Source of the DNA: Deltaproteobacteria bacterium
GTDB taxonomy: Bacteria; Desulfobacterota; Syntrophorhabdia; Syntrophorhabdales; JANXAF01
NCBI GenBank assembly: GCA_026417175.1
Contig: JAOADT010000021.1
Coordinates: forward strand, 1-35,720
Direction: 5' to 3'
Length of the DNA stretch: 35,720 nt
Shown here: positions 12,968 through 29,650 of the stretch, piece after piece
Layout of the letters: every line of letters begins with the position of its first letter
How positions within the stretch are numbered: position 1 is the stretch's first letter
Translations under genes and position numbers: made by a program
Notes under the pieces: model-generated
What the model saw: the letters and a program-made list of their open reading frames with translations, nothing else
Told to the model about the DNA's origin: nothing
Database searches by the model: none

Positions 12968-13388
12968 AGCTTTACCTCAATGGTTTATGAATATACATCA
13001 CTAGTTTATAATTTTCAAAGTCTTTTAATAAAAACTTATAGCCCTGCGTAGCAAAAAGCACCAATAAAAGCTTGCTAATTTGACTTAAAAAAATTACAAA
13101 ACGCTAATAAGCACTGATTTTTTGCCAATTTTGTTGGTATAACCTAGCATGTTTATAACAGGTTTAAAGCCAATTAAAAAAAGGTTAAACCAAAAGACAC
13201 ACTAAGTTTGAAAATATTTAGAATATATGCGATTATTAAATTGCTGTATATACATAATGATTTTGTCTTCGAATGGATAAGAAGTATGTTTTTAAATATA
13301 TAGGTAATAAGCAACGCAAATCGATTTTGTTTTTTACGCGTATGTGTCATACTTTTTATGGTCAGATCCGCAGTGCATAAAGGGGAGA
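12968..13388. other. Divergent intergenic region between gatB and the MBL-fold gene
   Basis: Very AT-rich. Besides the gatB promoter it contains two short palindromes, GGTATAACC (13136-13144) and GGTTAAACC (13183-13191). A 7-bp inverted repeat, GGTTTAA (13161-13167) with TTAAACC (13185-13191), is also present. A weak plus-strand promoter candidate is TTGAAA at 13208-13213 with GATTAT at 13231-13236, spaced 17 nt. No gene is evident. Confidence 0.4.
12990..13018 (-). promoter_or_regulatory. Candidate sigma70 promoter for the gatB operon
   Basis: On the minus strand TTGAAA (13013-13018) and TATATT (12990-12995) are separated by 17 nt. The predicted start site near 12983 leaves a leader of about 15 nt that contains the GAGG ribosome-binding site of gatB. 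Confidence 0.6.
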
Positions 13389-14321
13389 ATGGATTTTAAA
13401 GAGATCGATGGTTTGTCTATAACGGTCATTGTAGATAATTTTTATGACGCGCTTCTCGATGATCCGCCTTGCGGAAAAAGGTTTAGAACAACTCCTGAAA
13501 AATCTATCTACGCTGAACATGGTCTTTCTTTTTTCATAACAGCTCATAAAGGCGAAAAGAAACACTCCTTTTTACTTGATTTTGGTGTGGATGGTAACCT
13601 ACTTTTGCATAATCTAAAGGTACTTGAAATAGAAATCAAATCCATATCTTCCCTTGTACTAAGTCACGGCCACTTTGATCATTATGGAGGATTAAAAGGG
13701 CTTGTGAAGTACCTGGACTATCATGGAATAAAAGGACTTCCACTCTTTTTGGGAGAAGGGGCTTTTTCACGAAGATTTTTTAAAAAGAAGGACGAAAAGG
13801 AGTTTATAGACCTGGGCGAGCTAAAGAGAGAAGAGGTTGAAGGAGTTACCAGGATTTATGAGTTAAGGGAACCGATAGAATTTTTACCAGGATGTTACCT
13901 TACGGGAATAATAGAAAGGAAAAATGATTACGAGCACATTCCAAATAATCTGTTTCTTTATAAGGAAGGGGAAATCGTCAGCGATAATTTTCAAGAGGAA
14001 CTAGCTGTATTTTTTTTCATCAAGGGTAAGGGATTGGTTGTAATTTCCGGTTGTGCACACAGAGGAATTGTGAATACCATCAGTCAAGTTGTTGAAATAA
14101 CAGGCATACAGAAGGTTCATGCAATTGTAGGTGGATTTCATCTTATTCACGCCGAAGAAGAACGAGTACATATGACATTCAAAGGTTTAAAAGATTTTTC
14201 TCCAGATTACATTATCCCATGCCATTGCACAGGATTTTTCGCAAAAGTTCTTTTTATTGCAACGTTTGGCAAAAGCTGTATTATTAATACAGTTGGAAGT
14301 ACCTATCATTTTTTGGGGTAA
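13389..14321 (+). CDS. MBL-fold metallo-hydrolase (dihydropterin-synthase-like group)
   Basis: A 310-residue metallo-beta-lactamase-fold protein of the group annotated as 7,8-dihydropterin-6-yl-methyl-aminobenzene 5'-phosphate synthase-like. The metal-binding motif is LSHGHFDHYGGLKGLVKYL (HxHxDH). Later ligands are in SGCAHRGIVNT and at the C-terminal PCHCTG. The N-terminal ITVIVDNFYDALLDDPP and the EHGLSFFI segment are typical of this group. The ATG at 13389 is preferred because AGGGG stands directly before it; a GTG 45 nt upstream has no ribosome-binding site. A DUF364 gene follows after 6 nt, so both are likely co-transcribed. The real substrate is unknown; the pterin-synthase name rests on archaeal relatives. 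Confidence 0.85.
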   Translation: MDFKEIDGLSITVIVDNFYDALLDDPPCGKRFRTTPEKSIYAEHGLSFFITAHKGEKKHSFLLDFGVDGNLLLHNLKVLEIEIKSISSLVLSHGHFDHYGGLKGLVKYLDYHGIKGLPLFLGEGAFSRRFFKKKDEKEFIDLGELKREEVEGVTRIYELREPIEFLPGCYLTGIIERKNDYEHIPNNLFLYKEGEIVSDNFQEELAVFFFIKGKGLVVISGCAHRGIVNTISQVVEITGIQKVHAIVGGFHLIHAEEERVHMTFKGLKDFSPDYIIPCHCTGFFAKVLFIATFGKSCIINTVGSTYHFLG

Positions 14322-14327
14322 ATAGGT

Positions 14328-15080
14328 GTGGTGACACTTGAGAGAGTAAAAGAGATTTTCGAAAAAGTTGTACGAGAAAGAGGACTATATGAAGATAGTG
14401 TTTTAATATCCTTTCGTCCACTGAAACCAGAAGAAACTATCGGAAACCCCAAAAGAGACGATTTCCCAATAGTTATTGGAAAGGAGAAAGTAATTGAAGC
14501 TTCTTTTAAGGAAGCAAAAGCCCATGTTTTTACCGACTCACCAGTCAACTACTCGGGACACCTAAGGGAAATCCTGAAACTCAATCTTAGAACAAACGAA
14601 GAGAGAGCCGTATTCGTTGGCGCTTTAAATGCGGTGCTTAAGTTTTTAGACATTGTGGAAAAGACAATACACTGTAAGGACAAAGAACCTTTTGAGTGCG
14701 GAAAGAAAATTGCAAAATATTTGATAGAAAAAAAAGATGTAAAGAAAATCGGCCTCATAGGGTTTAATCCAGGAATTTTAGAAGGATTAGTAGATGCTTT
14801 TGGACCTAAGGCTTTAAGGGTGACAGACTTGAACACCGAAAATGTTGGGAAAAAGAAGTTTGGAGTTCCTATTTGGGATGGCAACTCTATGACGGAACGA
14901 TTGATACAAGAAGTTGACTTTATTCTTGTAACCGGCACTACATTCGTAAATGGAACATATGAGGGTATACATGAATTAATTGAAAAACATGGCAAAAACC
15001 ATTTGATTTATGGTGTGACTGGAATAGGTATCTGCACTTTACTCAGTTTAAACTCTATTTGCCCTTATGGGAGATATTAA
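14328..15080 (+). CDS. DUF364 (putative heavy-metal chelation) protein with N-terminal DUF4213-like part
   Basis: A 250-residue cytoplasmic protein. The N-terminal part (about 1-110) looks like the DUF4213 partner domain, with VFTDSPVNYSG and RAVFVGALNAVLKFLD. Residues about 120-250 form the Rossmann-like DUF364 domain, with KKIGLIGFNPGILEGLVDAF, the dinucleotide-type turn, then RVTDLNTENVGKKKFGVPIW, DFILVTGTTFVNGTYEGI and the end motif GICTLLSLNSICPYGR. The family's heavy-metal chelation label comes from a structural-genomics inference, not a proven activity. DUF364 genes are often near metal-transport genes, and an ABC importer is convergent here. The start is tandem GTG codons at 14328, 6 nt after the MBL stop. 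Confidence 0.85.
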   Translation: MVTLERVKEIFEKVVRERGLYEDSVLISFRPLKPEETIGNPKRDDFPIVIGKEKVIEASFKEAKAHVFTDSPVNYSGHLREILKLNLRTNEERAVFVGALNAVLKFLDIVEKTIHCKDKEPFECGKKIAKYLIEKKDVKKIGLIGFNPGILEGLVDAFGPKALRVTDLNTENVGKKKFGVPIWDGNSMTERLIQEVDFILVTGTTFVNGTYEGIHELIEKHGKNHLIYGVTGIGICTLLSLNSICPYGRY

Positions 15081-15570
15081 AATTAGAGAAGTCCCCAATC
15101 CGCACCAGGATCAGGTATATAAAAAACTTAAAAACTGGCTCAATTGTGTTTTAAGTTTTATGGCTTAACCTCATTCATAATAGAAAAAATATTCAATGGA
15201 ACATCTGACCCACTGTTATCTTTCAATAAAAAATTTTAATGGCGAAAAGCTTAAAATAGAAGGGTGGTTCCATTTTATCTGTGTGACCTCCCTAAGTTCC
15301 ACGAAAACCTGTAAGCCCTGGTTTTTCAGCTATTAGAAGTCTAGATTCGCCTTTTTTATTAGGAATTTCCCAAATGTCTTTGGCCTATTCTTATGAAGTC
15401 CCAAAAAGGTAAAGATCCAGGACTTGTTCCTGAAACACGGTTTTTCAGCCCCTAAAATCTAACACAGCCTTAAAAAACTTTATACTGGAATGTCTCTTGT
15501 AAGGTTTTATATTTTTTATACTTGAGTGGATTCTTCCCTTTCTGCATAATTTATTATTTTAGAGCTCTTT
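15081..15570. other. Intergenic region between convergent genes
   Basis: Contains the AT inverted repeat above and two copies of GGTTTTTCAGC near 15330 and 15444. No gene, transposase fragment or RNA fold was recognised. It may be decayed sequence. Confidence 0.4.
15123..15159. terminator. Inverted repeat downstream of the DUF364 gene, possible weak terminator
   Basis: A perfect 11-bp inverted repeat, AAAACTTAAAA (15123-15133) and TTTTAAGTTTT (15149-15159), flanks a 15-nt loop. It begins 42 nt after the DUF364 stop. The stem has only one GC pair, so termination is uncertain despite the T-rich right arm. Confidence 0.3.
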
Positions 15571-16323
15571 TCAATGTGCATATGGAGAAATGCCGTTTGA
15601 AAATTGTTTCTTTTCAAGAAAAAGAAAAATTCTTTCGAAAAACAAAGACATAAGGGCCAGAATAAAAAGACAACTCAATATGATGTCCGGTCTAATAAGA
15701 CTTTCTGCTTTCATTACAAGCGCGCCTAGGCCTTTAGGAATTGCCAACATTTCAGCTGCGATTACGACCCTCCATGATCCACCAGAAGACAACCGAAGTC
15801 CAGCGAATACATGGGGAAGCGCAGAGGGAATAATAACTCTTAGTATCAGATCTTTACCTTTTGCTCCGAGGCTTCTTGCTACCTTTACGATTCTCTGGTC
15901 AATACTCTTTATCCCGGATCTAGTCGTGTAACACACCGGGAAAAAAGAATGAATTGCTATAACGAGTATTGGCAGAGCCTCTGTTATTCCAACCCACAAC
16001 ATCAAAAGTGGCACCCAACCTATCGCTGGAATAGGGTAAAAAAAGGAGATAACTGGAGAGAGGGACTTATCTAACAAGGCTTTGTATCCAGTTATGATCC
16101 CCACAATTGTCCCGACAAGGGCACCTATGGAGAATCCAATTATTACCCGCAGAAGGGTGCGAAAAAAATGTTCTGTCAAAATTCCCTTTAAAGTTAAGCT
16201 TACTGTTTCTTGAACAACCGTGCTGAAAGGGGGAAAAAGATCATTCCTCATAAGATGCGAGCCGAACTCCCACACTATAAGTAGCGAAATAATTGGTGCG
16301 ACAAAGGAAATTTTTTCTTTCAA
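15571..16323 (-). CDS. ABC importer permease, TauC/SsuC-like
   Basis: A 250-residue inner-membrane permease of the nitrate/sulfonate/taurine class (BPD_transp_1). It has about six helices. The cytoplasmic coupling loop reads ARSLGAKGKDLILRVIIPSA followed by LPHVFAGLRLS, matching the EAA motif that contacts the ATPase. A typical front end, VWEFGSHLMRNDLFPPFSTV, and the stretch ISFFYPIPAIGWVPLLMLW identify the family. The start is TTG at 16323, 3 nt after the binding-protein stop with AGGA directly before it, so translation is probably coupled. It is the last gene of the ATPase - binding protein - permease operon. The substrate is unknown. Confidence 0.9.
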   Translation of the reverse strand: MKEKISFVAPIISLLIVWEFGSHLMRNDLFPPFSTVVQETVSLTLKGILTEHFFRTLLRVIIGFSIGALVGTIVGIITGYKALLDKSLSPVISFFYPIPAIGWVPLLMLWVGITEALPILVIAIHSFFPVCYTTRSGIKSIDQRIVKVARSLGAKGKDLILRVIIPSALPHVFAGLRLSSGGSWRVVIAAEMLAIPKGLGALVMKAESLIRPDIILSCLFILALMSLFFERIFLFLEKKQFSNGISPYAH

Positions 16324-16326
16324 GTC

Positions 16327-17307
16327 CTAAAACCCAGTATAGATTAGATCCTTGGCCGCAACGCGACCTTTTAGATATCCCTTTCTATCCATAAAATTTA
16401 TAACATCCTGCACGACGTCCCGGTTTACATCGTTAGTGAATATGACCCTCGACATAGATGCCCGAATCTCATTTTCTGTTACAGAAAGTTTCGTCTTAGG
16501 ATCCAGCTTTTCAACAAAACCCGATCTTTGGGCTTCAAATGTCAGATATTTTGCAATAATCCGTGCTGAATCTTCCTTGTTGGTAATAATCCACTCGGTT
16601 GCCTTTTTTATTGCTACGTTGAGGCTCCTTACGGCCTTAGGTTTTTTCTCCAATACTTCATTTTTTACTACTAGAACACTTCCTAGAAAATCTGGCCAGA
16701 TGTCTTTTGCCGTTAGAATAATCTTAAAGCCTTCTTTTTCTGCAAGTGAAAGATAATGTTCCGGCAAAAAACAAGCATCTAATGAACCTGATTTTAGAGC
16801 AAAAAGCATGTTTGGAGGATTCATCCGTAAAACCGACGAAAGCACAACGTCCTCATTTAATCTATACTTTTCCACGGTTTTTCTTAAAATTAAATCTGTT
16901 CCGCTCCCTTCTCTTACGCACCCAATCTTAAGTCCCTTTTTTTCAAGATCTCTTGGATGTTTTATCTTATCGCCATCTGACACTAACCCATATCCATATA
17001 AATGTAACCCCGAGATGATCCTCAGTTTTACCCCCCCATTTACAAAAGAAGTAATCGTTGGAGGAAGGCAAATAAAAGCCGCCTCAATGTCACCCCTTTT
17101 AAGTGAAGAAGCTAGAGCAACCCCAGTAACATAAGCTTCATAAGATTTTATCTTCAATTGTTCTCTGTCAAAAAAACCTTTGTCAAGTGCTACGTAGAAA
17201 GCCGCCGCATGAGTGTTAAATTCGGTGGCGATGGAAATTTTGTCTTGCGCAAAAATTGAGCCACAAAAAAATGTTACAACGTAGAGAGCTGTTAATATCC
17301 CTTTCAT
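16327..17307 (-). CDS. ABC importer periplasmic binding protein, NMT1/SsuA-like
   Basis: A 326-residue secreted binding protein. The signal peptide is residues 1 to about 20 (ILTALYVVTFFCGSIFAQ). The mature protein opens KISIATEFNTHAAAFYVALD-type sequence. It goes on to KGFFDREQLKIKSYEAYVTG, SLKRGDIEAAFICLPPTI and GLKIGCVREGSGTDLILRKT, the two-lobed NMT1/TauA/SsuA pattern. Relatives bind thiamine precursors, sulfonates, taurine or nitrate, so the family does not fix the ligand. GGAGG stands 4 nt before the ATG, and the ATG overlaps the ATPase stop by 4 nt. Confidence 0.88.
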   Translation of the reverse strand: MKGILTALYVVTFFCGSIFAQDKISIATEFNTHAAAFYVALDKGFFDREQLKIKSYEAYVTGVALASSLKRGDIEAAFICLPPTITSFVNGGVKLRIISGLHLYGYGLVSDGDKIKHPRDLEKKGLKIGCVREGSGTDLILRKTVEKYRLNEDVVLSSVLRMNPPNMLFALKSGSLDACFLPEHYLSLAEKEGFKIILTAKDIWPDFLGSVLVVKNEVLEKKPKAVRSLNVAIKKATEWIITNKEDSARIIAKYLTFEAQRSGFVEKLDPKTKLSVTENEIRASMSRVIFTNDVNRDVVQDVINFMDRKGYLKGRVAAKDLIYTGF

Positions 17308-18368
17308 GCCTCCTCCGTGTAGGTTCTTAATCTTCTCAGCTTGAATATTAGAAAGACTTCTTTTTGTGGATGGAGATTCAATTCCCGAAAAGTCTCTCTA
17401 GGCAGTTCGACGACAAGAATATGGTCACCAACTCTCACTTTCATGTTAATTATCGAAGAAAGATCCTCTATTTCGAGAATGGTACCTTTTACCCTGTTTA
17501 CCTCTGGTCCGGGAGGCTTATCAACTGATACGTAAATGTCTCTCGAAGAAAGGGCAATTTTCTTTATGTTATTATTTTCTTGGGGCACGAGTAGTCTTAT
17601 CCCGCCTAAAGAAACTTCGCAAAGACCAGATCCAATAGGTCTAACGTGATCCACATCTAATATATTTGGGACACCCACAAATTTAGAAACCACACCGCTT
17701 TTTGGAAAGAAGAATATCTCGTGGGGGGAGCCTACTTGCTCAACTCTTCCAGAGTTTATAATGGCGATTTTTACAGCTAGTTCTTCCGCTTCGCCAAGAT
17801 TGTGTGTAACGTGGATTGTGGTTAATCCAAGCTCCTTATGGAGCCGTTTCAATTCAACCCTAAAGATTTTAGAAGTTGAAATATCCAGATTACTAAGTGG
17901 CTCATCAAGAAGAAGCAAGTCAGGTGCTAAAGCAAGCGCCCGTGCTATCGCGACTTTCTGTTTCTCACCGCCTGATAATGTTCTAATATCTCTATTTAAA
18001 AGATGTTCGATTCCTAAAATCTCAGATAAAAATCTCACCTTTTTCTTTCTCTCTCCATCGGAATACTTCCTCATTCTAAGACCAAATTCGATATTTTTTT
18101 GCACATCCAAAAATGGAAAGAGCACGCAGTCCTGTGGCACATACCCAACGTTTCTGTGCTCGGGTGGAACATTGGTTATATCCTTACCACCAAGGAGTAT
18201 AGAACCTTTTTTTATTTTCCTTAGTCCTGCAATAGCTTCTAAAAGGACCGTTTTTCCAGAACCGTTCGGACCCAAAATGACAAAGTAATCGTGTTTTTTT
18301 ACTTCAAGGTTGATCCCTCCCAGGGAAAAATTACCTACCTCCACAATAAGATCTTTCACTTCTAACAC
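17304..18368 (-). CDS. ABC importer ATPase with C-terminal TOBE-like domain
   Basis: A 354-residue ATPase that powers the adjacent permease. Walker A is GPNGSGKTVLLEAIAG, the Q-loop lies in GYVPQDCVLFPFLDV, the signature is LSGGEKQKVAIARALA, Walker B is LLLLDEPLSNLD, and the switch His is in IHVTHNLGEAEELA. Residues about 230-354 form a TOBE-like tail (FVGVPNILDVDHV, AGTILEIEDLSS-type strands), as in ModC, CysA and PotA. TauB/SsuB ATPases, the usual partners of this permease class, are about 250 residues and lack it. A TOBE tail often means regulation by the cargo. The start is GTG at 18368 with GGAG 5 nt upstream. A perfect sigma70 promoter precedes it. Confidence 0.92.
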   Translation of the reverse strand: MLEVKDLIVEVGNFSLGGINLEVKKHDYFVILGPNGSGKTVLLEAIAGLRKIKKGSILLGGKDITNVPPEHRNVGYVPQDCVLFPFLDVQKNIEFGLRMRKYSDGERKKKVRFLSEILGIEHLLNRDIRTLSGGEKQKVAIARALALAPDLLLLDEPLSNLDISTSKIFRVELKRLHKELGLTTIHVTHNLGEAEELAVKIAIINSGRVEQVGSPHEIFFFPKSGVVSKFVGVPNILDVDHVRPIGSGLCEVSLGGIRLLVPQENNNIKKIALSSRDIYVSVDKPPGPEVNRVKGTILEIEDLSSIINMKVRVGDHILVVELPRETFRELNLHPQKEVFLIFKLRRLRTYTEEA

Positions 18369-18916: not shown

Positions 18917-20008
18917 TTACCAGTTGCTAAGAACTGTTATTTTCCCCTTTTCTATAACAATCTTTCCGAAGAATCCGAAATTTCTCTTGATTTCTCCGTA
19001 TACTGATTCAGAAACAAAGAATCTAATTATTCGCTCTGCCTGTTCGTCGATGTTTACGTTCTTGAAGGAAGCTGGATAAACAACCTTTCCGATAAAAAAT
19101 GCATTGGTTACGGCGAGCTCAACATTTGTGTTATAGTAATTGTAAGGAAGTATGGTGAATAGTTTATTCTCTTTTATAGCTTTAAGATTCATGAAGAGAC
19201 CGGGAGAGTCAATTAGCTCTTTCTGAAAAATCGAAAGACCGTTAACATCTACAAATATAATGTCAGGATTGAGAGATAGGAGCTTTTCTTTTTCTAGAAA
19301 AAGGTGGCCATCTTTTCCAAAATCATCTACAACGTTCTTAACATTTACCAGCTTAAATGGAAGAAAACCCGCCTCAGTTGATGTTATACCATGCTGCCCT
19401 TTAAAACCAATCCCACCTGCGTATACCTTCGGTTTTTCCTTTTGATTTAAAGTCTTTTGTGCCAGATATTCTTCTGTTCTTTTGAGGAATTCGTCTATTT
19501 CCATAACCCTGTTTTCCCTGCCAACTATTGAACCAACAAGTGTAAGGGAATCGATGAATTTTTTAGCTCTTAGTACACCAACAGATCCGTAGTCGAGAGC
19601 AATAACTGGTATCATTGTTCTCTCCTGTATCATATCCATAGTTCCTCTATCGAATCCCACAGCAAATATGACATCGGGCTTAACACTTACTATCTTTTCA
19701 AAGTCTGGGAGTTTACCAGGTCCGCCTTCGCCGATTAAGGGTAGGTCTTTAATTTTTTCTTTAATTGCAAGAGTGTACGGCCTCCCATACGGAGTAAAAC
19801 CGCCTTTTTCGACTCTCTCAACCCCCACCACTTTATCTACGGAGGAAAGGTAGGTTATCATTCTAAGAGCACCAGGGCCAATTGCGACTAATCTTTCTAC
19901 CTTTTCAGGTACTTTGATTCTTCTGCCTAGTAAGTCTTCCACTTCCTTACACTCCAGACTTTGGATCAGCAATAATAGGACAAAAATTACACTTAGTAAT
20001 ACTTTCAT
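18917..20008 (-). CDS. ABC importer periplasmic binding protein, BtuF/FecB-like
   Basis: A 363-residue secreted binding protein of the metal-chelate class (Peripla_BP_2). The signal peptide is MKVLLSVIFVLLLLIQS-type. Family marks in the mature part are EVEDLLGRRIKVPEKVERLV, KPDVIFAVGFDRGTMD and VIALDYGSVG. A later KVYAGGIGFKGQHGITSTEA is also conserved in binding proteins that sit beside FmdE or tungstate/molybdate-type FecCD systems. The ATG at 20008 is chosen because AAGGAGG lies just upstream; the frame extends 9 codons further but without that support. The ATG overlaps the methyltransferase stop as ATGA. It is the last gene of the FmdE operon. Relatives carry cobalamin, haem, ferric siderophores or oxyanions; the ligand is unknown here. 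Confidence 0.88.
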   Translation of the reverse strand: MKVLLSVIFVLLLLIQSLECKEVEDLLGRRIKVPEKVERLVAIGPGALRMITYLSSVDKVVGVERVEKGGFTPYGRPYTLAIKEKIKDLPLIGEGGPGKLPDFEKIVSVKPDVIFAVGFDRGTMDMIQERTMIPVIALDYGSVGVLRAKKFIDSLTLVGSIVGRENRVMEIDEFLKRTEEYLAQKTLNQKEKPKVYAGGIGFKGQHGITSTEAGFLPFKLVNVKNVVDDFGKDGHLFLEKEKLLSLNPDIIFVDVNGLSIFQKELIDSPGLFMNLKAIKENKLFTILPYNYYNTNVELAVTNAFFIGKVVYPASFKNVNIDEQAERIIRFFVSESVYGEIKRNFGFFGKIVIEKGKITVLSNW

Positions 20009-20784
20009 ACACCCTCCTTTAGCTGTACTTTCCATGTTATCAGAGCCACTTCTGCATCAGTCCTGTGACTCACCATGTTAGATCCAAAATGACGCTTAAG
20101 TTCAGTAAATATTTTTTCTTTTCTAGGATTTTTTCCGTATAGCCTGATATAGCAACAAAGGTCATCCAGTGCCTCCTCTAGAGTACCCCAAAAATCCCAG
20201 CTATACTCAAAAAATTCAACGTGAAACCTTCTTCTCAACTTTTCTAAAGTCAAACATATGGAAAAGGCGGGAGAGTGAAAATTCCATTCAATACCATGCA
20301 TTGCAAAGATTTTTTCCATCAGGTGGTTCTTTCTTTTCCCCCACCCCATGTAAATAAGCCATTCCTTGGAACAGTCCTCCATTTTAAGGATATCTCTTAC
20401 TGATTTAACGGCAGGGGTCATCATAGCCATGACAATATCAAATTTTTTTGTAAAACCAAGCTCTTTTGGATCTACATCCTCCCAGAAGTAATTCAAAAGA
20501 ACTATGTTTTCTAACCCGTGTCTTTCAGCTTGATTTTTTAATATGGATAACATTTCACATGAACAGTCAATTCCGCAAACTAATCTCGCTTCACTTGCAA
20601 GAGGGAGTGTATATATTCCAGTTCCGCATCCAATATCGAGTATTTTTTTTCCAGAAAAAAAGACACCGCGGACTCTCAGCTTGTCAATTACGAATATAGT
20701 GTTTTTTAAACTTCCCTGATCGAAGGGAAGTGGATATTTAGGTGCCTTTTTATCCCAAAAATTTTTCAAAAGTTCCCTATCCAT
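20005..20784 (-). CDS. Class I SAM-dependent methyltransferase in a metal-importer operon
   Basis: A 259-residue cytoplasmic methyltransferase. It begins DRELLKNFWDKKAPKYPLPF, then shows SAM motif I at residues 47-57 (KILDIGCGTGIYTLPL) and the acidic ribose contact Asp73 in CGIDCSCEML. Motif IV is near KFDIVMAMMTPAVKSV. The C-terminal half is not a standard small-molecule methyltransferase pattern that I can name. It lies 9 nt after the ATPase stop and overlaps the binding protein by 4 nt, so it is part of the same transcript as an importer. It may modify a chelator or an imported complex, but that is an inference from position only. Confidence 0.85.
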   Translation of the reverse strand: MDRELLKNFWDKKAPKYPLPFDQGSLKNTIFVIDKLRVRGVFFSGKKILDIGCGTGIYTLPLASEARLVCGIDCSCEMLSILKNQAERHGLENIVLLNYFWEDVDPKELGFTKKFDIVMAMMTPAVKSVRDILKMEDCSKEWLIYMGWGKRKNHLMEKIFAMHGIEWNFHSPAFSICLTLEKLRRRFHVEFFEYSWDFWGTLEEALDDLCCYIRLYGKNPRKEKIFTELKRHFGSNMVSHRTDAEVALITWKVQLKEGV

Positions 20785-20793
20785 CTTTTGAAT

Positions 20794-21552
20794 TCAGCCA
20801 TTTTTTATTAAGACGTATGGTGAACCCATCATCTCTTTTATTTCCACATCGATCCCAAAAACTTTCATTATGATCTCACTACTTATTATTTCTTTTCCAC
20901 CAAACGCCTCTATGCGACCCTCTTTGAGAAACAAAAAAACGTCTGAATACCGAAGGGCAAGATTTATATCATGAAGAACGAATACAGTGATTAGGTGTAA
21001 TTCTTTTGTGGCTTTTGAAATGAGTGATGCCATCTCAAATTGGTTTTTTATGTCAAGATAGGTAAGTGGTTCGTCTAATAAGAGTACTTTTGGATTCTGA
21101 GCGAGAGCTCTTGCAATTATCACCTTTTGGAATTCTCCTCCACTTATCCTCATTATTGACTTAGATTTTAGATGGGAAAGACCCATTACATTGATTACCC
21201 TTTCTGTTATCTGGATATCTTCTTTTTTAATCCTGAAATGCACGTGAGGCTTTCTTCCTGAAAGTACCGCTTCAAAAACTGATGTATTAAATCCTTCCGA
21301 TCTTTGCGGGACGTATCCTATTATTTTTGCTTTCCCACTTAGACTAATTTCTGCCAAGTTTTTTCCATCTAAAAAGACAGCTCCATTCTTTGGTGAAAGA
21401 ATGGAGGCAAGAACTTTAAGAAGCGTAGTTTTTCCTGACCCGTTAGGTCCTAAGATGGATAATATTTGCCCACTTTCCAAAGAAAAATTTACATTATCCA
21501 AAATAGGCGCACTATTATATGAGAAAGTTATCCCTTTAACTGTGATTCGCAT
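20794..21552 (-). CDS. ABC importer ATPase, BtuD/FecE-like
   Basis: A 252-residue ATPase for a type II (BtuCD-like) importer. Walker A is GPNGSGKTTLLKVLASIL, the Q-loop is in IIGYVPQRSEGF, the signature is ISGGEFQKVIIARALAQ, Walker B is VLLLDEPLTYLD, and the switch His is in FVLHDINLALRYSD. The length is normal. The ATG at 21552 lies inside the permease 3' end (17-nt overlap), which implies coupled translation. It works with the FecCD-type permease next to it. Confidence 0.94.
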   Translation of the reverse strand: MRITVKGITFSYNSAPILDNVNFSLESGQILSILGPNGSGKTTLLKVLASILSPKNGAVFLDGKNLAEISLSGKAKIIGYVPQRSEGFNTSVFEAVLSGRKPHVHFRIKKEDIQITERVINVMGLSHLKSKSIMRISGGEFQKVIIARALAQNPKVLLLDEPLTYLDIKNQFEMASLISKATKELHLITVFVLHDINLALRYSDVFLFLKEGRIEAFGGKEIISSEIIMKVFGIDVEIKEMMGSPYVLIKNG

Positions 21553-22600
21553 CTCTAGACCTCACAAGCAAATAAAGAAAAAATGGTGCTCCAAAGAAAG
21601 AAGTTATTATCCCTACCGGAAGGACGTTGGGCGCTATTATTTTTCTTGCCAACATGTCAGACAAAACAAGAATTAGAGAGCCAATAACCGTAGACACCGG
21701 TATAAGAAATCTTTCATCCTCACCTACAAATAATCTACCTATATGAGGTGCTATTAGACCGACAAAAGCAATGATCCCAAGAAATGATGTTATAATTGAT
21801 GTAACCATAGCCGTAATCAGAAACACTTGCATTCTTATACTTTTTGCCTTGACTCCTAAAGTTTTTGCCACATCGTCTCCCCATTTTATGACGTTAAGAT
21901 CGTTACTTCTTGTCAGGAGGTAAAGGAAACCTCCCACGACAAAAAAAGCAATGAGAGGAATATTTTTCCACGTTGCTTTCCCAATATCCCCGAATGTCCA
22001 AAAAACTGATGCAGCTACCTGAACATCCTCTGCAAAATACTGAATAAACATTGTGAGCGCAGAAAAGAATGCACTTATTGCTATTCCCGCTAAAACCACA
22101 ACTTCGCGTGTCGCTCCTTTAAGGGAGGAAACCACAAAAATCAGAGAAATGGAGAAAAGTGAGCCTATAAAAGCACATATGACGACAGGATAGTAACTAA
22201 AAACTGTTATTCCTTCTCCTGTCTTGTGTTGTAAACCTGCACCAAGCACTATTATAGCAAAAGAAGCTCCGAAGGCGGCTCCCTGGGAGAGTCCCAAGGT
22301 GAACGGGGAAACTAGAGGATTCTTTAAAACATTCTGTAATACACATCCAGAAAGTCCAAGCCCAGCACCCGCCAGAGTCGCACCTAAAAGTCTGGGGATC
22401 CTAATTTGCCATAAAATATGGGATATGGTTCCATGTTCTTTTCCTAAAATCGTGGAAAATACAGAAAGTATGTCAGTTCGATAGGATCCGGTGGCAAGAA
22501 AGATGAAAAAGAATACTGCAAAAATAAGTAGAAGTATCGAAAAGACTCTCTTTTTCCGTTTGATGAGAGATTCATAAAAGTCGTAAGATATATGGCTCAT
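21536..22600 (-). CDS. ABC importer permease, BtuC/FecCD family
   Basis: A 354-residue permease with the many hydrophobic helices of the BtuC class. Conserved stretches are RIPRLLGATLAGAGLGLSGC, VLQNVLKNPLVSPFTLGLSQ, GAAFGASFAIIVLG and FVGLIAPHIGRLFVGEDERF. The C-terminal end LPVGIITSFFGAPFFLYLL is diagnostic of the family. The ATG at 22600, 2 nt after the FmdE stop, is preferred. An upstream GTG at 22639 would run 37 nt into the FmdE gene. Charged N-terminal residues (KRKKRVF) precede the first helix, as is usual. Confidence 0.94.
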   Translation of the reverse strand: MSHISYDFYESLIKRKKRVFSILLLIFAVFFFIFLATGSYRTDILSVFSTILGKEHGTISHILWQIRIPRLLGATLAGAGLGLSGCVLQNVLKNPLVSPFTLGLSQGAAFGASFAIIVLGAGLQHKTGEGITVFSYYPVVICAFIGSLFSISLIFVVSSLKGATREVVVLAGIAISAFFSALTMFIQYFAEDVQVAASVFWTFGDIGKATWKNIPLIAFFVVGGFLYLLTRSNDLNVIKWGDDVAKTLGVKAKSIRMQVFLITAMVTSIITSFLGIIAFVGLIAPHIGRLFVGEDERFLIPVSTVIGSLILVLSDMLARKIIAPNVLPVGIITSFFGAPFFLYLLVRSRDANHS

Positions 22601-22602
22601 AT

Positions 22603-23238
22603 TTATCGAAATTCCCTTTTTTGGGCACAGGGTATACACAGATTGGATCCGTTAATCTCAACTAACTTTTTCACCATGACAGGCTCTCCACATCCTCCAC
22701 AGATCTCTGACTTCATTATTTTAGCGGATGGAGGAAGTTCCATTTCTACTTCTCTTACTGAGAATATCTCTTCAGGTTCACTCTTAAGTACTCTTACTGC
22801 TCTTTCCAATTGAAATTGTTCAAACAGTCTTTTTTCTTCCATCGAAGCATTTCCGCTTAAAACTTTATCCATAAGACTGAAGATCTCCATATTTTGTGGC
22901 TGAGTCAAAACACCACTTTTTAGAGCAACTCTTAAACCCCTTTTTGTATTTCTAGATAAAAGGGTTAAGGCCATCTTCCCATAATCTTTAAAAAAAATAT
23001 TTCCTTTGCCGAAGGTGCACCCGGTTATAACTTGCACTGCATCAACAAAGCACGAGTCGTTCTCAACTATTCCAATGATTTCTTCATCGGAGACCTTCTT
23101 TTCTTTTAGTCTATGCATAGCAAGAATTGAACTTTTGTAACCCAAAGCTAAACCGGGACACAGGTGACCATGGAATTTCACACATTCAGCAAGTCCTTTG
23201 TAAATGTCAATAATTTGGTCTTGTGTTGGTTTTAGCAC
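22603..23238 (-). CDS. FmdE-domain protein with C-terminal zinc-ribbon
   Basis: A 211-residue protein of the FmdE family, named after a formylmethanofuran dehydrogenase subunit. In bacteria it is also found beside metal importers. The core motif FHGHLCPGLALGYK supplies His23, His25 and Cys27. Cys63 (NDSCFVDAVQVITGCTFGKG) and Cys74 follow. The tail has a four-cysteine zinc-ribbon (C180, C183, C201, C204). The pattern suggests that the protein binds metal and may take up or hand over the transported metal inside the cell; this is an inference. The start is GTG at 23238 with a weak ribosome-binding site. It leads the operon, and the permease follows after 2 nt. Confidence 0.9.
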   Translation of the reverse strand: MLKPTQDQIIDIYKGLAECVKFHGHLCPGLALGYKSSILAMHRLKEKKVSDEEIIGIVENDSCFVDAVQVITGCTFGKGNIFFKDYGKMALTLLSRNTKRGLRVALKSGVLTQPQNMEIFSLMDKVLSGNASMEEKRLFEQFQLERAVRVLKSEPEEIFSVREVEMELPPSAKIMKSEICGGCGEPVMVKKLVEINGSNLCIPCAQKREFR

Positions 23239-23277: not shown

Positions 23278-23297
23278 GAATTATTTTCCAAAATATG

Positions 23298-23326
23298 TTG
23301 ACAGATAACCAATGGGCTAGTAAAAT
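23298..23326 (+). promoter_or_regulatory. Candidate sigma70 promoter of the tetR-RND operon
   Basis: TTGACA (23298-23303) and TAAAAT (23321-23326) are spaced 17 nt. The start site near 23333 favours the ATG at 23340 as the tetR start and leaves a very short leader. This promoter is divergent from, and about 20 nt apart from, the fmdE promoter. Confidence 0.55.
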
Positions 23327-23339
23327 GAGCGCAGGGAAT

Positions 23340-23912
23340 ATGAACAAACGTTCAGTTTCTCAAACGAAAAGAGCAATAATGGAGGCCGCCCTTAATCTAT
23401 TTGTTAAACATGGCTTTACCAGAACTACCATGAGGATGATTGCAAAGGAGGCTAATATAAGTGTTGGAGCCCTTTATCTGCATTTTAAGAACAAAGAGGC
23501 TTTGTGCCTTTTCATACTTAGGGAGAAGTTGGGAGAGCTCTTTAGGAAACTGGAAGATGTAACTCGAAATAAAACCAAGGCAGAGGAAAAACTCAAGGCG
23601 TTTATGGGAACCTGTATTGAATACGCAAAAGACAACAGGGAGCTAATAGTAGCCCATAGTGCAGAAAAAGGATTTACCTTTGGTTTGGAGATAAAGAAGG
23701 AATATAGCGCAAAACAGAGGGGTCTTATAAAGGAGATAGTACTGGAAGGAATAAGGACCGGGGAGTTCAAAGAAATAGATGTTGAAGGCGTGGCTAACAC
23801 CGTGATGGCCCTAATAAGAGGATTTGTTCTTTCTTTGGTAATTGACGAGGAATGCAATTTGAAAGAAAAAGACTATTTCTTACCTCTGTTTTACGGATTG
23901 AAAAAGGGATAA
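23340..23912 (+). CDS. TetR-family repressor of the RND efflux operon
   Basis: A 190-residue TetR regulator. The N-terminal DNA-binding domain reads AIMEAALNLFVKHGFTRTTM followed by RMIAKEANISVGALYLHFKN, the classic TetR helix-turn-helix. The rest is a variable ligand-binding, dimer-forming domain. The ATG at 23340 is preferred because AGGGA precedes it and the predicted promoter overlaps the longer alternatives at 23295 and 23325. The efflux genes start 3 nt downstream on the same strand, so it very probably represses its own operon. The ligand is unknown. Confidence 0.92.
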   Translation: MNKRSVSQTKRAIMEAALNLFVKHGFTRTTMRMIAKEANISVGALYLHFKNKEALCLFILREKLGELFRKLEDVTRNKTKAEEKLKAFMGTCIEYAKDNRELIVAHSAEKGFTFGLEIKKEYSAKQRGLIKEIVLEGIRTGEFKEIDVEGVANTVMALIRGFVLSLVIDEECNLKEKDYFLPLFYGLKKG

Positions 23913-23915
23913 TCA

Positions 23916-25070
23916 ATGGAGGAAAAATTGAAAAATAAAATACTAGTGTTGATTTTTGTCGTAATTGCAGCATGTTACTGCTTTATCTTTTCTGCTTGTG
24001 AAAAAAAGAGAGATATTCAACTGCAAATATCACCAGAAGTTTCTGTACTTAAGATAGTTCCAGTAGAACTGACTCTCACAACTGAATTGCCGGGAAGGGT
24101 AAATCCCTTCAGGATCGCCGAGATAAGACCGCAGGTGAGCGGGATATTGAAAAAAAAGCTTTTTAGAGAGGGAGATTACGTAAACGAGGGGGAAGTCCTT
24201 TATGAGATAGATGAACGTCCCTATAGGGAGGCAGTGAGTAACGTAGAGGCAGCCATAAGAAAAATTTTAGCTAATATGGAATCGGTTAGAGCTAAGTACG
24301 AGCGATATTCAGAGCTTGTGAATGTGGGAGCTATAAGCAGACAAGAGTTTGATGACGTATCTGCTCAATATAAACAACTTCAAGCGGAAATAGATTACTT
24401 GAAAGCACAACTTGAGATCGCAAGGATAAATCTTGAGAATACGAAGATTAAGGCTCCCATATCAGGTAAATCTGGCAGGTCTTTTTTTACTGAGGGGGCC
24501 CTGGTTACTAGTCACCAAGCACAGGCACTCACGGTTATACAACAGATTGATCCAGTATATGTGGATATATCTCAGTCAATAAACGACTTATCTCGACTAA
24601 AAAAGAGGCTGGAGGAAGGCCGATTAAAATATGCGGGTAAGGATCAAGAGAAAGTCAGCATCATATTAGAAGACGGGAGGATCTTCCCGCATGAAGGAAC
24701 TATACAGTTTAAGGACATCACAGTTGAACAGACAACTGGCACCGTGATTATAAGGGTCCTTGTTCCGAATCCGGAAGCATTTCTTCTTCCGGGAATGTTT
24801 GTTCGTGCTGTAATAAAAGAAGGAATAAATAGGAAGGCAATTCTTGTTCCACAGAATGCAGTTTTAAGGGATACAAAAGCAAATCCTTTTGTTTATGTGG
24901 TGGATAAAGAAAACAAGGTAAAAATAAGGACCGTTAGTATTGATAGAGCCGTAAAGGACAAGTGGTTGATAAGCGAGGGGCTTTGGGAAGGCGACCTGGT
25001 GATAGTGGAAGGTATACAGAAAATAAGAGCTGGGATTCCCGTAAAGCCTGTGATTTACAAAGGAGAATAA
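23916..25070 (+). CDS. RND efflux periplasmic adaptor (AcrA/MexA family)
   Basis: The 384-residue membrane-fusion protein links the inner-membrane RND pump to the outer-membrane channel. It carries a lipoprotein signal with the lipobox FSAC near residue 28 (AACYCFIFSACEKK), so it should be anchored in the inner membrane. Conserved parts are LTTELPGRVNPFRIAEIRPQ, VSGILKKKLFREGDYVNEGE and VLYEIDERPYREAV for the lipoyl half. A coiled-coil hairpin spans about 100-165, followed by NTKIKAPISGKSGRSFFTEG and a beta-barrel. The gene sits 3 nt after tetR and 6 nt before the pump gene. Confidence 0.95.
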   Translation: MEEKLKNKILVLIFVVIAACYCFIFSACEKKRDIQLQISPEVSVLKIVPVELTLTTELPGRVNPFRIAEIRPQVSGILKKKLFREGDYVNEGEVLYEIDERPYREAVSNVEAAIRKILANMESVRAKYERYSELVNVGAISRQEFDDVSAQYKQLQAEIDYLKAQLEIARINLENTKIKAPISGKSGRSFFTEGALVTSHQAQALTVIQQIDPVYVDISQSINDLSRLKKRLEEGRLKYAGKDQEKVSIILEDGRIFPHEGTIQFKDITVEQTTGTVIIRVLVPNPEAFLLPGMFVRAVIKEGINRKAILVPQNAVLRDTKANPFVYVVDKENKVKIRTVSIDRAVKDKWLISEGLWEGDLVIVEGIQKIRAGIPVKPVIYKGE

Positions 25071-25076
25071 TCAATC

Positions 25077-28000
25077 ATGTTATCTAAATTTTTTCTAGAT
25101 CGTCCTGTATTTGCTTGGGTAATAGCAATTATAATAATGGCAAGTGGAGCTTTAGCAATATACAAACTCCCTGTTTCCCAGTATCCTCTAATTGCCCCAC
25201 CATCTATTTACATAATGGCTTACTATCCTGGCGCGTCTGCAGAAACTGTAGAAAATAGCGTTACCCAAATCATAGAGCAGAAATTGACCGGTCTAGATAG
25301 GATGCTATATATGTATGCCACGAGTGATTCTTCTGGTACCTCAAGAATAGAAATAACATTTGAACCTGGTGTTGATCCAGATCTGGCTTGGGCTAAGGTC
25401 CAGAATAAGCTACAACTAGCTATGGCGAGTCTCCCGGATGTGGTCCAGCAAATGGGTTTAAGGGTCGGTAAGGCAACGAGGAACTATCTTTTAATTGCCA
25501 ACCTTATTTCTGAAGACGGAAGCATGGATGGGAGCGACTTAAGGGACTATGCACAATCGTATTTGGAGAAAGTTTTGTCCAGGGTGGAAGGTGTTGGAGA
25601 AGTGGAGATGTTTGGAACCCAATACGCCATGCGTCTTTGGCTAGATCCCCACAAACTTTTGAGCTACGGAATGACTATAGAAGACGTTATAAAAGCGGTG
25701 AAGTCATATAACGTTGAAGTTTCCGCAGGACAAATCGGTGGTGCTCCTCAAATAAAGGGTCAGAAACTAAATGTATCTATAATAGTGGAGAGCCTCAGAA
25801 AGACACCCGAAGAGTTTGCTTCGATTCCCCTGAAGATAGGTAGAGATGGATCGGTAATAAGGGTAAAAGATGTAGGTAGGGTTGAACTGGGCACTGAACA
25901 GTATGACATAGAAAACTTTTATAATGGAATGCCTTCTGCTGGAATAGCTATAAGACCTGTTCCCGGAGCAAATGCGCTTGATACAGCAGAGAAGATAAAG
26001 AAAAAGCTAGAGGAAATGAAAAGGTACTTTCCGCCTGGTATGAACGTTGTTTATCCATTCGATACCACACCCTTTACAAAAGTAGCAATACGTGAGGTGA
26101 TAAAAACTCTTTTTGAAGCCATAATTCTTGTTTTTCTGGTAATGTGGCTTTTTTTGGGAAGTTTGAGAATAACGTTTATTCCTACTATTACTGTACCTGT
26201 TGTTCTTCTTGGTACTTTTGCGGTTCTTAAACTATTTGGTTATTCGATTAACATGTTAACTATGTTTGCCATGGTTTTAGCCATTGGCCTCCTTGTGGAT
26301 GATGCCATCGTAGTTGTAGAAAACGTGGAGCGTATCATGAGAGAGGAAGGTCTTCCTCCGCGAGAAGCAACCGAAAAGTCTATGGATCAAATAACTAGTG
26401 CGTTAATTGGGATAGGGCTCGTACTTTCGGCAGTGTTCGGACCTATGGCCTTTTTTGGTGGGTCTACGGGAGTAATTTACAGACAATTCTCAGTTACTAT
26501 CATATCTTCCATGCTTCTTTCAGTTCTGGTTGCTCTTATTTTAACACCTGTGCTATGCGTCACGTTCATGAGAAAGAGAGAAACCACTTCGTCGATCTCA
26601 AAAACTTTTTTCCTCAAGTTAGACAGAGCCTTTTTCAATTTGAGAGACAGATACGTAAGACAAGTAGAAAAGTCTTTTTTTAGGGTAACGCGTTACTTAA
26701 TAGTTTACATCATAGTTGTGGTTGGTTCCTTATATTTTTTCTCAAAATTGCCTACAGCGTACATTCCAGATGAAGATCAGGGTATTCTCATGGCCCAGGT
26801 TATACTTCCACAGGGTTCTACCTTGGAACAAACAAAGTCTGTTCTTAATGAGATTTACAGGTACTTTAGGGATAATGAAAAGGATTCAGTTGAATCGTGC
26901 ATGTACGTGGCAGGTATCGGTTTTTCTGGGAGGACACAAGCTAATGGTATGGTTTTTATAAAATTGAAAGACTGGCATTTGAGAAATAGAAAGGAACAAA
27001 AGGTAGACCAGATTGCAAAACGGGCTATGATGGCGTTTTCCAGTTATAAGAAAGCTCTCGTATTCGTTTTTCCACCTCCATCTATTGTAGAACTTGGGAG
27101 ATCAAAAGGTTTCGATTTCCAATTGTTAGACAGGGGAGGTGTGGGACATGAGGTCCTAATGTCTGCAAAAAATGAACTTTTAAGGATGGCAAATAATGAC
27201 AAAAGGCTTTATGCTGTAAGGTACAACGGACTAGAAGACGTACCACAGCTTAGAATAGAGATTGATTGGGAAAAAGCAGGTGCACTCGACGTTCCAATTA
27301 CTTCAGCGTATAATGTGATCTCGGCATCTTTCGGTGGCATATACATAAATGACTTTATACATCAAGGAAGGGTAAAGAGAGTTTATGCCCAATTGGATGC
27401 GCCCTACAGGATGCTACCGGAAGATTTAAATAATGTTTACGTCAGAAATTTCGAGGGAAAGATGGTCCCATTTTCTTCACTTGCCACCATTAAATGGGTT
27501 TATGGGTCCCCTAGACTTGAAAGATATAACGGTTTTCCATCTATTAACATACTGGGAGAAGCAGCCCCAGGAAGGAGTTCAGGGGAGGCCATGGCTGCAA
27601 TGGAAGAAATTGTGTCAAGGCTTCCTTCTGGTATAGGTTACGAATGGACTGGCGTTTCTTACCAAGAGAGGTTGGCAACAGGTCAGGCTCCGATTCTTTA
27701 TGCCTTTTCAATTTTTGTGATCTTTCTCTGTGTTGCCGCTCTTTACGAAAGTTGGGCCATTCCAATTGCCAATCTTCTTATGCTGCCCCTTGGAGTGTTT
27801 GGGGCAACACTTGCCACATATTTGAGAGGGCTCCACAATGACGTGTACTTTCAGATCGGATTCCTCACCACCTTGGGTCTTTCTACAAAAAACGCTATTC
27901 TAATAATCCAGTTCGCAAAGGAAAGATTGAAAAAAGGAGAAAATCTATTATCTGCCACTAAATCCGCCGCAAAAATAAGGCTGAGACCGGTTATAATGAC

Positions 28001-28196
28001 GTCTTTTGCCTTCTTTTTCGGTGTTTTACCCCTTGCCCTAGCTACTGGAGCTGGAGCAGGGGCTATGAAGGCTATAGGTACAGCTGTGTGTGGAGGAATG
28101 CTTTCGGCCACTTTTATTGATATGTTCTATATTCCACTCTTCTTTGTTCTCGTTTCAAAAGTTTTTGCCGTAAAAGGGATAAAAGAGAACACATGA
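25077..28196 (+). CDS. RND multidrug efflux pump, HAE1 type (AcrB/MexB-like)
   Basis: The 1,039-residue inner-membrane transporter exports drugs or other hydrophobic compounds using the proton gradient. It begins MLSKFFLDRPVFAWVIAIII, the standard HAE1 start, followed by LPVSQYPLIAPPSI and YPGASAETVENSVT. The proton relay residues are present: Asp408 and Asp409 in GLLVDDAIVVVENVERIM, and Lys938 in GLSTKNAILIIQFAKE. The length, twelve helices and two large periplasmic loops fit a full single-gene pump. The stop overlaps the next ATG by 4 nt. The substrate range cannot be read from sequence. Confidence 0.96.
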   Translation: MLSKFFLDRPVFAWVIAIIIMASGALAIYKLPVSQYPLIAPPSIYIMAYYPGASAETVENSVTQIIEQKLTGLDRMLYMYATSDSSGTSRIEITFEPGVDPDLAWAKVQNKLQLAMASLPDVVQQMGLRVGKATRNYLLIANLISEDGSMDGSDLRDYAQSYLEKVLSRVEGVGEVEMFGTQYAMRLWLDPHKLLSYGMTIEDVIKAVKSYNVEVSAGQIGGAPQIKGQKLNVSIIVESLRKTPEEFASIPLKIGRDGSVIRVKDVGRVELGTEQYDIENFYNGMPSAGIAIRPVPGANALDTAEKIKKKLEEMKRYFPPGMNVVYPFDTTPFTKVAIREVIKTLFEAIILVFLVMWLFLGSLRITFIPTITVPVVLLGTFAVLKLFGYSINMLTMFAMVLAIGLLVDDAIVVVENVERIMREEGLPPREATEKSMDQITSALIGIGLVLSAVFGPMAFFGGSTGVIYRQFSVTIISSMLLSVLVALILTPVLCVTFMRKRETTSSISKTFFLKLDRAFFNLRDRYVRQVEKSFFRVTRYLIVYIIVVVGSLYFFSKLPTAYIPDEDQGILMAQVILPQGSTLEQTKSVLNEIYRYFRDNEKDSVESCMYVAGIGFSGRTQANGMVFIKLKDWHLRNRKEQKVDQIAKRAMMAFSSYKKALVFVFPPPSIVELGRSKGFDFQLLDRGGVGHEVLMSAKNELLRMANNDKRLYAVRYNGLEDVPQLRIEIDWEKAGALDVPITSAYNVISASFGGIYINDFIHQGRVKRVYAQLDAPYRMLPEDLNNVYVRNFEGKMVPFSSLATIKWVYGSPRLERYNGFPSINILGEAAPGRSSGEAMAAMEEIVSRLPSGIGYEWTGVSYQERLATGQAPILYAFSIFVIFLCVAALYESWAIPIANLLMLPLGVFGATLATYLRGLHNDVYFQIGFLTTLGLSTKNAILIIQFAKERLKKGENLLSATKSAAKIRLRPVIMTSFAFFFGVLPLALATGAGAGAMKAIGTAVCGGMLSATFIDMFYIPLFFVLVSKVFAVKGIKENT

Positions 28197-29650
28197 TGAG
28201 ACTTTCGCTATTACTCACGGTTGTAATTGCCATCGCTTCTTGCTCGTCAAATTACACCTACAAGCAACCTTCTATTCCGGTTCCTGCCTTTTTTAATAAG
28301 ACTGACATTTCCGGAAAGACTGAATATGCCCCACTCGTCAAGGAAATTACCATTCACGATTTTGTTAAGGATAAGAAGCTTCAAGCATTAATAGCTATTG
28401 CAGTAGAGAATAATAGAGACCTTAAGATTTCTTTAGCCAATGTACAGAAAGCCAAAGAATATTTTGGAATAAAAAGGGCAGAGCTTTTGCCTTCGTTAGG
28501 TATTTATTTGGAAGGATCTAGACAGAGGATACCCTCTGATCTCTCTCCTAGGAGTGAATCAATCATAAACGAACAGTACTCCTTTGTAACAGGCTTAGTA
28601 TCGTGGGAGATTGATATTTTTGGAAAGATAAGAGCACAAAAGGATATGGCTTTTGAAAGTTATCTTGCGCAGAAAGAGATAAGCAGGGCTGTCAAACTTT
28701 CTCTCATCACTGAAGTTGCCGGTGCGTACTTTACCTACGCGGCAGACCAAGAAATTCTAAAAATAGCTAATGATCTGATAAGGACGAACACCGAAATATA
28801 TGAGATAGTTAAAAAACGTTATCTTACGGGGATGGCCACTGAAGTGGAGTTGAAACACGCGGAAGCCCAGGTTGAAAATGCGAAAGAGACTCACCTCAGA
28901 TATCTTCAAGAAACTCAGAAAGACAAAAATGCGCTGGATTTACTTGTTGGAATTTCTGTACCAGAAGAATTACTACCAAATGGTATGGCAGATGTGGTAC
29001 CTCTTTTGGATATATCCTCCGGTTTATCCTCGGAGATTCTCTTGACAAGACCGGACATTATGGCACTTGAACACAATCTTAAATCTATGAATGCCCAAAT
29101 CGAAGCAGCGAGAGCGGCCTTTTTTCCAATAATCTCTCTTACCAGTATCTTAGGTGTAGCGTCTGGAGAACTCAGTGGACTTTTTCTATCGGGGTCTAAA
29201 ACATGGACCTTCAAACCACAGATAAAAACGCCCGTATTTGATACGAGAGTCATGAAGGCTCACAGATTGGCGAAAATAGAAGCAGAGATAGCAGTTTTAA
29301 ACTATGAGAAAGCCATTCAGAACGCTTTCAAAGAGGTTTTAGATTGTCTTTCTTTTAAGGCAATAATAATTGAGCGAAAGAAAGCATACCAGAATATGGT
29401 TTTTAGTCTCGCCGAGGGATTAAGACTTTCTAAGTTGAGGTACGAAAAAGGAATAGATAACTATCTTTCGGTGCTTATTTCGCAAAATAGTCTTCTTTCT
29501 GCAAAAATATACGAAACTCGGCTTGAGCTTCTGAGAAACACAAACCTCCTTTCCCTTTATAAAGCTTTAGGAGGTTCTAAGGATTTAGATTATTTACTTA
29601 CTTCAGTTTTTTGCGGTTCCGCGCAAGGATGTCCCTCTTCTTCTCCGTGA
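28193..29650 (+). CDS. RND outer-membrane factor (OprM/NodT-type lipoprotein)
   Basis: The 485-residue TolC-like channel completes the tripartite pump. The N-terminal lipobox is IASC near residue 17 of a lipoprotein signal. Two repeated outer-membrane efflux domains are seen, with LIAIAVENNRDLKISLANVQ, WEIDIFGKIRAQKDMAFESY, LLTRPDIMALEHNLKSMNAQ and IEAARAAFFPIISLTSILG. The ATG overlaps the pump stop by 4 nt. The last ~15 residues (SVFCGSAQGCPSSSP) are unlike the family end and lie opposite a small antisense gene. They may result from that overlap. Confidence 0.93.
   Translation: MMRLSLLLTVVIAIASCSSNYTYKQPSIPVPAFFNKTDISGKTEYAPLVKEITIHDFVKDKKLQALIAIAVENNRDLKISLANVQKAKEYFGIKRAELLPSLGIYLEGSRQRIPSDLSPRSESIINEQYSFVTGLVSWEIDIFGKIRAQKDMAFESYLAQKEISRAVKLSLITEVAGAYFTYAADQEILKIANDLIRTNTEIYEIVKKRYLTGMATEVELKHAEAQVENAKETHLRYLQETQKDKNALDLLVGISVPEELLPNGMADVVPLLDISSGLSSEILLTRPDIMALEHNLKSMNAQIEAARAAFFPIISLTSILGVASGELSGLFLSGSKTWTFKPQIKTPVFDTRVMKAHRLAKIEAEIAVLNYEKAIQNAFKEVLDCLSFKAIIIERKKAYQNMVFSLAEGLRLSKLRYEKGIDNYLSVLISQNSLLSAKIYETRLELLRNTNLLSLYKALGGSKDLDYLLTSVFCGSAQGCPSSSP

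Follow-up and report, generated by a model that had tools for sequence, protein, structure and literature searches.

The window considered here is a 35,720-nt stretch of contig JAOADT010000021.1 (assembly GCA_026417175.1), from a Deltaproteobacteria bacterium of the order Syntrophorhabdales. It carries one tight minus-strand operon, running from position 23238 down to 18917, for an FmdE-family protein, a FecCD permease, an ABC ATPase, a methyltransferase (MTase), and a substrate-binding protein (SBP). This operon is probably a molybdenum (or tungsten) acquisition unit, combining BtuCDF/MolBCA-type import with metal handling by FmdE and ligand modification by the MTase. We observed directly which genes make up the set, that they are conserved, that the set differs from the cell's own vitamin B12 importer, and that molybdenum and tungsten genes surround its relatives; from genomic context we infer molybdenum or tungsten as the best candidate substrate, and the role of FmdE and the target of methylation are likewise proposed from sequence comparison.

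Molybdenum and Tungsten Genes Around Related Operons

Gene content of related loci was read by six-frame hidden Markov model annotation. In order-level relatives a related cluster begins with a divergent ModE-type helix-turn-helix gene, followed in order by genes for a TonB receptor, DUF4213/DUF364, TonB, FmdE, MTase, FecCD, ATPase, in two genomes MoeA, and SBP. Twelve order-level loci combine FmdE, a related MTase, and a BtuCDF-type importer: six have a ModE-domain gene, four have MoeA inside or adjoining the cluster, and three have ModABC-type genes. The ModE-domain genes have TIGR00637 as their best family (64–67 bits in the three tested, below its cut-off of 98.5); ModA (212 bits) and ModB (252 bits) in L044 and ModC (359 bits) in L049 are over cut-off. 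As background, there are about 102 copies of MoeA in 46 genomes (about 135 Mb), so that about 1.4% of 19-kb loci would be expected to hold one. Molybdenum genes (ModE, MoeA, ModABC, MoCF) are thus above background in homologous clusters, mainly those of sister subfamilies.

Window-type MTases also have such neighbors. In four genomes (L180, L182, L185, and L188) a homologue of the window-type MTase and FmdE are divergent neighbors, with a MoCF_biosynth protein after FmdE (the Pfam run for this domain covered three of the four loci), and in L052 a window-type MTase is clustered with MoeA. L180 has in addition a ModE-type gene, beside which homologues of the window's DUF364 gene and NMT-type binding protein (see below) are paired. 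Molybdopterin oxidoreductases adjoin other FmdE genes (L046, L057–L066, L069, and L158), some of them of the pyrogallol hydroxytransferase type.

Demand for Molybdenum and Tungsten

The operon's own genome (G000; a 2.1-Mb draft, 96% complete) encodes seven PF00384 (bis-PGD) and five AFOR (AOR-type) enzymes, together with a molybdenum cofactor locus, MoaA, and two MoeA proteins. ModA was not found in it. Among the 46 genomes of the class only four lack ModA (one of these is 66% complete), and they include G000 and its relative G002, both with the exact operon (Fisher p 0.006 for ModA absence vs. operon presence over the 46 genomes, G000 and G002 being relatives). Tungstate may be covered by a TupABC-like system in the genome (TupA 190 bits, below the cut-off of 400), which would leave molybdenum as the gap. 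One molybdopterin oxidoreductase gene (G000:C11:121131-122402) has a single in-frame TGA, and perhaps encodes a selenocysteine formate dehydrogenase.

Conservation of the Gene Set

The five genes occur in identical order in G002, from the same family (L034), and G121 has all five plus a TonB receptor; a contig scan for relatives found two only. Phylum-wide, the closest other MTases belong to L171 (TonB, TonB receptor, FmdE, MTase, SBP, FecCD, ATPase) and L170 (FecCD, SBP, MTase, divergent FmdE, TonB receptor). When loci were ranked solely by FmdE similarity, 16 of 40 had FecCD within 5 kb of FmdE, and FmdE was within 5 kb of the MTase in 10 of the top 20 MTase loci; on these counts, made without phylogenetic correction, the association is not due to chance. 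FmdE is commonly found close to an importer; the MTase accompanies them at some loci, and the complete five-gene arrangement is seen only rarely. Searches with PF12849 were uninformative, with PstS-type proteins matching everywhere. Among the papers searched, none described the whole FmdE-MTase-importer set.

An earlier note on this DNA, made from the sequence alone, had proposed the five-gene operon, giving a span (18917–23238) that is correct; all five genes were confirmed on the minus strand by Pfam matches and gene junctions. The scattered, non-conserved co-occurrence that it named as an argument against a functional unit was not seen, co-occurrence being conserved across relatives. Its proposal of an importer for a metal, oxyanion, or chelate with a cytoplasmic FmdE is supported, and its other counter-argument, a cobalamin riboswitch, was not seen on the operon or in 15 related loci (three lie elsewhere in the genome). 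Its description of the substrate as undescribed has to be amended: a 2010 paper (PMC2954224) had already placed FmdE next to transporters of metal ions, and the relatives point to molybdenum or tungsten.

Comparison With Vitamin B12 Import

One possibility is an ordinary importer of vitamin B12 or another corrinoid, with unrelated passenger genes, as the earlier note would have concluded from a cobalamin riboswitch in relatives. BtuC is the best NCBIfam match of the permease (205 bits, cut-off 334), and in one genome (G021) a cobalamin riboswitch lies less than 3 kb from an FmdE gene. However, an Rfam scan of the window and 15 related loci found no cobalamin riboswitch, and the G021 element (L038:9572-9771, about 2.7 kb from FmdE) precedes a TonB-like gene, with opposite-strand genes between that gene and FmdE. 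The NCBIfam matches of the SBP do not include BtuF, which is also absent from its top 50 fold matches.

The operon's own genome has three cobalamin riboswitches, all on other contigs. One is directly upstream of a TonB-B12-type receptor gene (290 bits), behind which lie BtuF-like and BtuC-like genes; this locus has BtuF and the TonB-B12 receptor as its best matches, likewise below cut-off. None of the 20 cobalamin-riboswitch loci of the class contains FmdE, MTase, DUF364, MoeA, or ModE. Since BtuCDF-type importers and TonB receptors of the same genomes are present in many of these loci, they serve as a matched control. A B12 importer with passengers is accordingly highly improbable, and the operon was rejected as the cell's B12 importer, given the separate riboswitch-controlled BtuB/BtuFCD locus and the absence of the operon's marker genes from riboswitch loci.

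The FmdE Protein and the Methyltransferase

FmdE, known since the 1990s, still has no assigned function. The window's copy matches the Pfam family at 140.7 bits (cut-off 22.9) and retains both the residues that bind metal in the solved structures of the family (His23, His25, Cys27, and Cys63) and the four-cysteine finger; it matches no curated family name. FmdE-like genes occur in 33 of the 46 genomes. In three loci (L068:9193-10152, L163:7217-8230, and L170:2839-3933) the FmdE domain follows an N-terminal extension with a signal-peptide-like start, next to TonB receptor or importer genes; these are possibly a periplasmic variant.

The MTase, with its SAM motif (DIGCGTG) and Rossmann fold, is a class I S-adenosylmethionine (SAM)-dependent enzyme. 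It has no curated name: its best NCBIfam match is CpaM, at 45–48 bits vs. a cut-off of 180. A confident AlphaFold2 model (pLDDT 93.7) retrieved many small-molecule methyltransferases (E 1e-12 to 1e-13, TM 0.5–0.67), including the dithiol S-methyltransferases TmtA and GtmA, but these predicted fold neighbors are generic, and too unspecific for naming a substrate. In a tree the window MTase forms one clade with those of L034, L170, L171, and the long-branched L052, and several different MTase subfamilies recur at FmdE-importer loci.

Two further loci have related features. In L183 (434-8813) an MTase relative adjoins a TonB receptor and an importer of the oligopeptide family that resembles NikA, without FmdE, perhaps the same methyltransferase idea applied to another metal. 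L051, inside an FmdE-MTase-DUF364 cluster, encodes two proteins (12747-14588 and 16602-18353) that start with a signal-like stretch, carry a tetrapyrrole-methylase domain after it, and match a molybdopterin domain weakly.

As an alternative, the arrangement could be a moonlighting or regulatory one, with FmdE-TraR as a metal sensor or regulator and an MTase target unconnected with the imported metal. The zinc finger is consistent with this, regulation or metal sensing has been proposed for FmdE (PMC2954224), and 10 of the 20 top MTase homologues have no FmdE nearby. It seems quite improbable, however, given the recurrence of different MTase subfamilies with FmdE-importer loci and the persistence of the window's MTase clade in importer clusters (L034, L170, L171, and L052).

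Proposed Function

As a molybdenum or tungsten acquisition unit, the operon might work as follows. The SBP, permease, and ATPase would import the metal, free or chelated; in TonB-equipped relatives it probably enters as a chelate or in another form too bulky to pass through porins. FmdE, with its His/Cys site and zinc finger, would handle the incoming metal in the cytoplasm and hand it over towards MoeA and molybdopterin, and the MTase would modify either a co-imported ligand or a pterin or thiol intermediate. Molybdenum turns into thiomolybdate in sulfidic media (PMC10390477), and it is tempting to speculate that this could be the reason why ModABC does not suffice for an anaerobe. A more specific version, which we regard as decidedly unlikely, is methylation-gated acquisition in sulfidic habitats: a molybdenum or tungsten complex with a catecholate, dithiol, or thio ligand would be imported via TonB and BtuCDF-type pumps, and the MTase would O- or S-methylate the ligand, freeing the metal for FmdE to catch and feed to MoeA.

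Several points weigh against molybdenum or tungsten. The strongest molybdenum context (ModE, MoeA, ModABC) belongs to a related but distinct subfamily, with FmdE about 32% and MTase about 24% identical to the window's, and no ModE, MoeA, or Mod gene is next to the operon in the window. A single event within one family may account for the absence of ModA from both G000 and G002, and the TupABC-like system may cover tungstate. FmdE crystal structures contained zinc or nickel, and no molybdenum (PMC2954224); the NikA-like importer of L183 makes other metals possible. In a PDB fold search with the SBP model, MolA, a molybdate/tungstate protein (E 4.7e-17), came next after TM0189 of Thermotoga maritima, with the iron-siderophore-type YiuA close behind at about the same score; the predicted fold fits molybdenum or tungsten without deciding for it.

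Some of these points would also suit the uptake of chelated ferric iron (or of another chelated first-row metal), in which FmdE would be a zinc, nickel, or iron chaperone and the MTase would break down or modify the chelator. Siderophores and heme are the usual cargo of type III binding proteins and FecCD permeases, and relatives have TonB receptors, TonB, and ExbBD; the rank of YiuA, the metals in the FmdE crystals, and the L183 pairing point the same way. We consider this possible but rather unlikely, as it leaves the recurrence of ModE, MoeA, ModABC, and MoCF around FmdE-MTase clusters unexplained. No Fur-type control or siderophore biosynthesis genes were noticed in the loci read, although no dedicated search was made and Fur and NikR were not searched for systematically.

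A joint role of FmdE, a conserved MTase, and a BtuCDF-type importer in supplying molybdenum or tungsten, as proposed here, makes the function of FmdE testable, concretely and cheaply. If the proposal is correct, some importers of anaerobes now labeled "iron siderophore" or "B12" would be mis-annotated molybdenum or tungsten systems, and anaerobes may take up complexed molybdenum via TonB receptors.

Organization of the Operon and Its Neighbors

The features of the operon are listed in Table 1. Pfam scores besides that of FmdE are 33.4 bits (zf-dskA_traR), 302.5 (FecCD), 113 (ABC_tran), 46.7 (Methyltransf_25), and 60.2 (Peripla_BP_2). The FmdE stop is separated by 2 nt from the FecCD ATG at 22600; FecCD and ATPase overlap by 17 nt, and ATPase and MTase are 9 nt apart. 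If the SBP starts at the ATG at 20008, which is preceded by an AGGAGG site, it has an ATGA overlap with the MTase. The permease, matching ATPase, and class III SBP in one operon make this a type II (BtuCDF-architecture) ABC importer. GC content of the operon is 38%, close to the 39% of the window.

Table 1. Positions of the operon's genes and motifs in the window (ORF, open reading frame).
Feature	Position	Strand	Basis
First gene: FmdE family (PF02663), with a zinc finger of the DksA/TraR type at the C terminus	22603..23238	-	Pfam; PDB homologues 2gvi, 3d00, 2glz
FHGHLC motif of FmdE (His23, His25, Cys27; fourth ligand Cys63)	23158..23175	-	Alignments; ligand roles from PMC2954224
Four-cysteine zinc finger of FmdE (C180, C183, C201, C204)	22627..22701	-	Pfam zf-dskA_traR
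FecCD/BtuC-type permease; ATG start likely 22600, longer ORF from 22639	21536..22600	-	PF01032, 302 bits; PDB
ABC ATPase, FecE/BtuD/HmuV type	20794..21552	-	Pfam, NCBIfam
Class I SAM-dependent MTase, unnamed subfamily; SAM motif DIGCGTG at residues 50-56	20005..20784	-	Pfam, model, fold search, tree
Type III (helical backbone) periplasmic SBP with signal peptide; ATG start likely 20008, longer ORF from 20035	18917..20008	-	Pfam, model, PDB fold search

Two neighboring gene groups were noted. At 13344–18368 there is a second candidate metal system: a metallo-beta-lactamase-fold gene and a weak DUF364 gene on the plus strand, then an NMT1/SsuA-type binding protein, a permease, and a WtpC-like ATPase on the minus strand, this NMT operon lying behind a perfect TTGACA-17-TATAAT box. 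On the other side, divergent genes for a TetR regulator, an RND adaptor, an RND pump, and a TolC-type protein (23295–29650) begin 57 nt from the FmdE start and form an ordinary efflux operon.

Comparison With Known Systems

The operon resembles BtuBCDF in its permease and ATPase families and, in its relatives, in having a TonB receptor; it differs in lacking a riboswitch, in its additional FmdE and MTase, and in sharing a cell with a real B12 locus. MolBCA, the molybdate/tungstate importer of Haemophilus influenzae (HI1470-1472; PMC4031551), has the same BtuCDF-type architecture, MolA is the best functionally characterized fold match to the SBP, and the 2nq2 permease matches the window's FecCD, but MolBCA as described has no FmdE or methyltransferase, and its binding protein is only about 20% identical to the SBP. 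The closest SBP relative, TM0189 (2etv; 46% identical over the full length), is annotated as an iron(III) binding protein, but its ligand is not known, and FmdE is missing from the T. maritima genome used as a control.

The DUF364/DUF4213 heavy-metal chelation family, tied to iron, tungsten, vanadium, and molybdenum transport (PMC2954201), is present in 9 of the 12 related clusters but is outside this operon, the one weak DUF364 gene being 4 kb away (14328–15080). The solved FmdE structures (2glz, 2gvi, and 3d00; PMC2954224) share with the window's protein the FHGHxC metal site, the second motif, and the zinc finger. The same paper reported genes for metal-ion transporters next to most FmdE genes and proposed that FmdE takes part in metal transport, but a word search of it gave no mention of a methyltransferase, and it does not name a single transported metal. 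The proximity of FmdE to metal transporters is therefore already known; new here are the conserved MTase, the association between the FmdE-MTase-importer set and ModE, MoeA, and ModABC (and with it the assignment to molybdenum or tungsten), the matched exclusion of B12, and the ModA gap.

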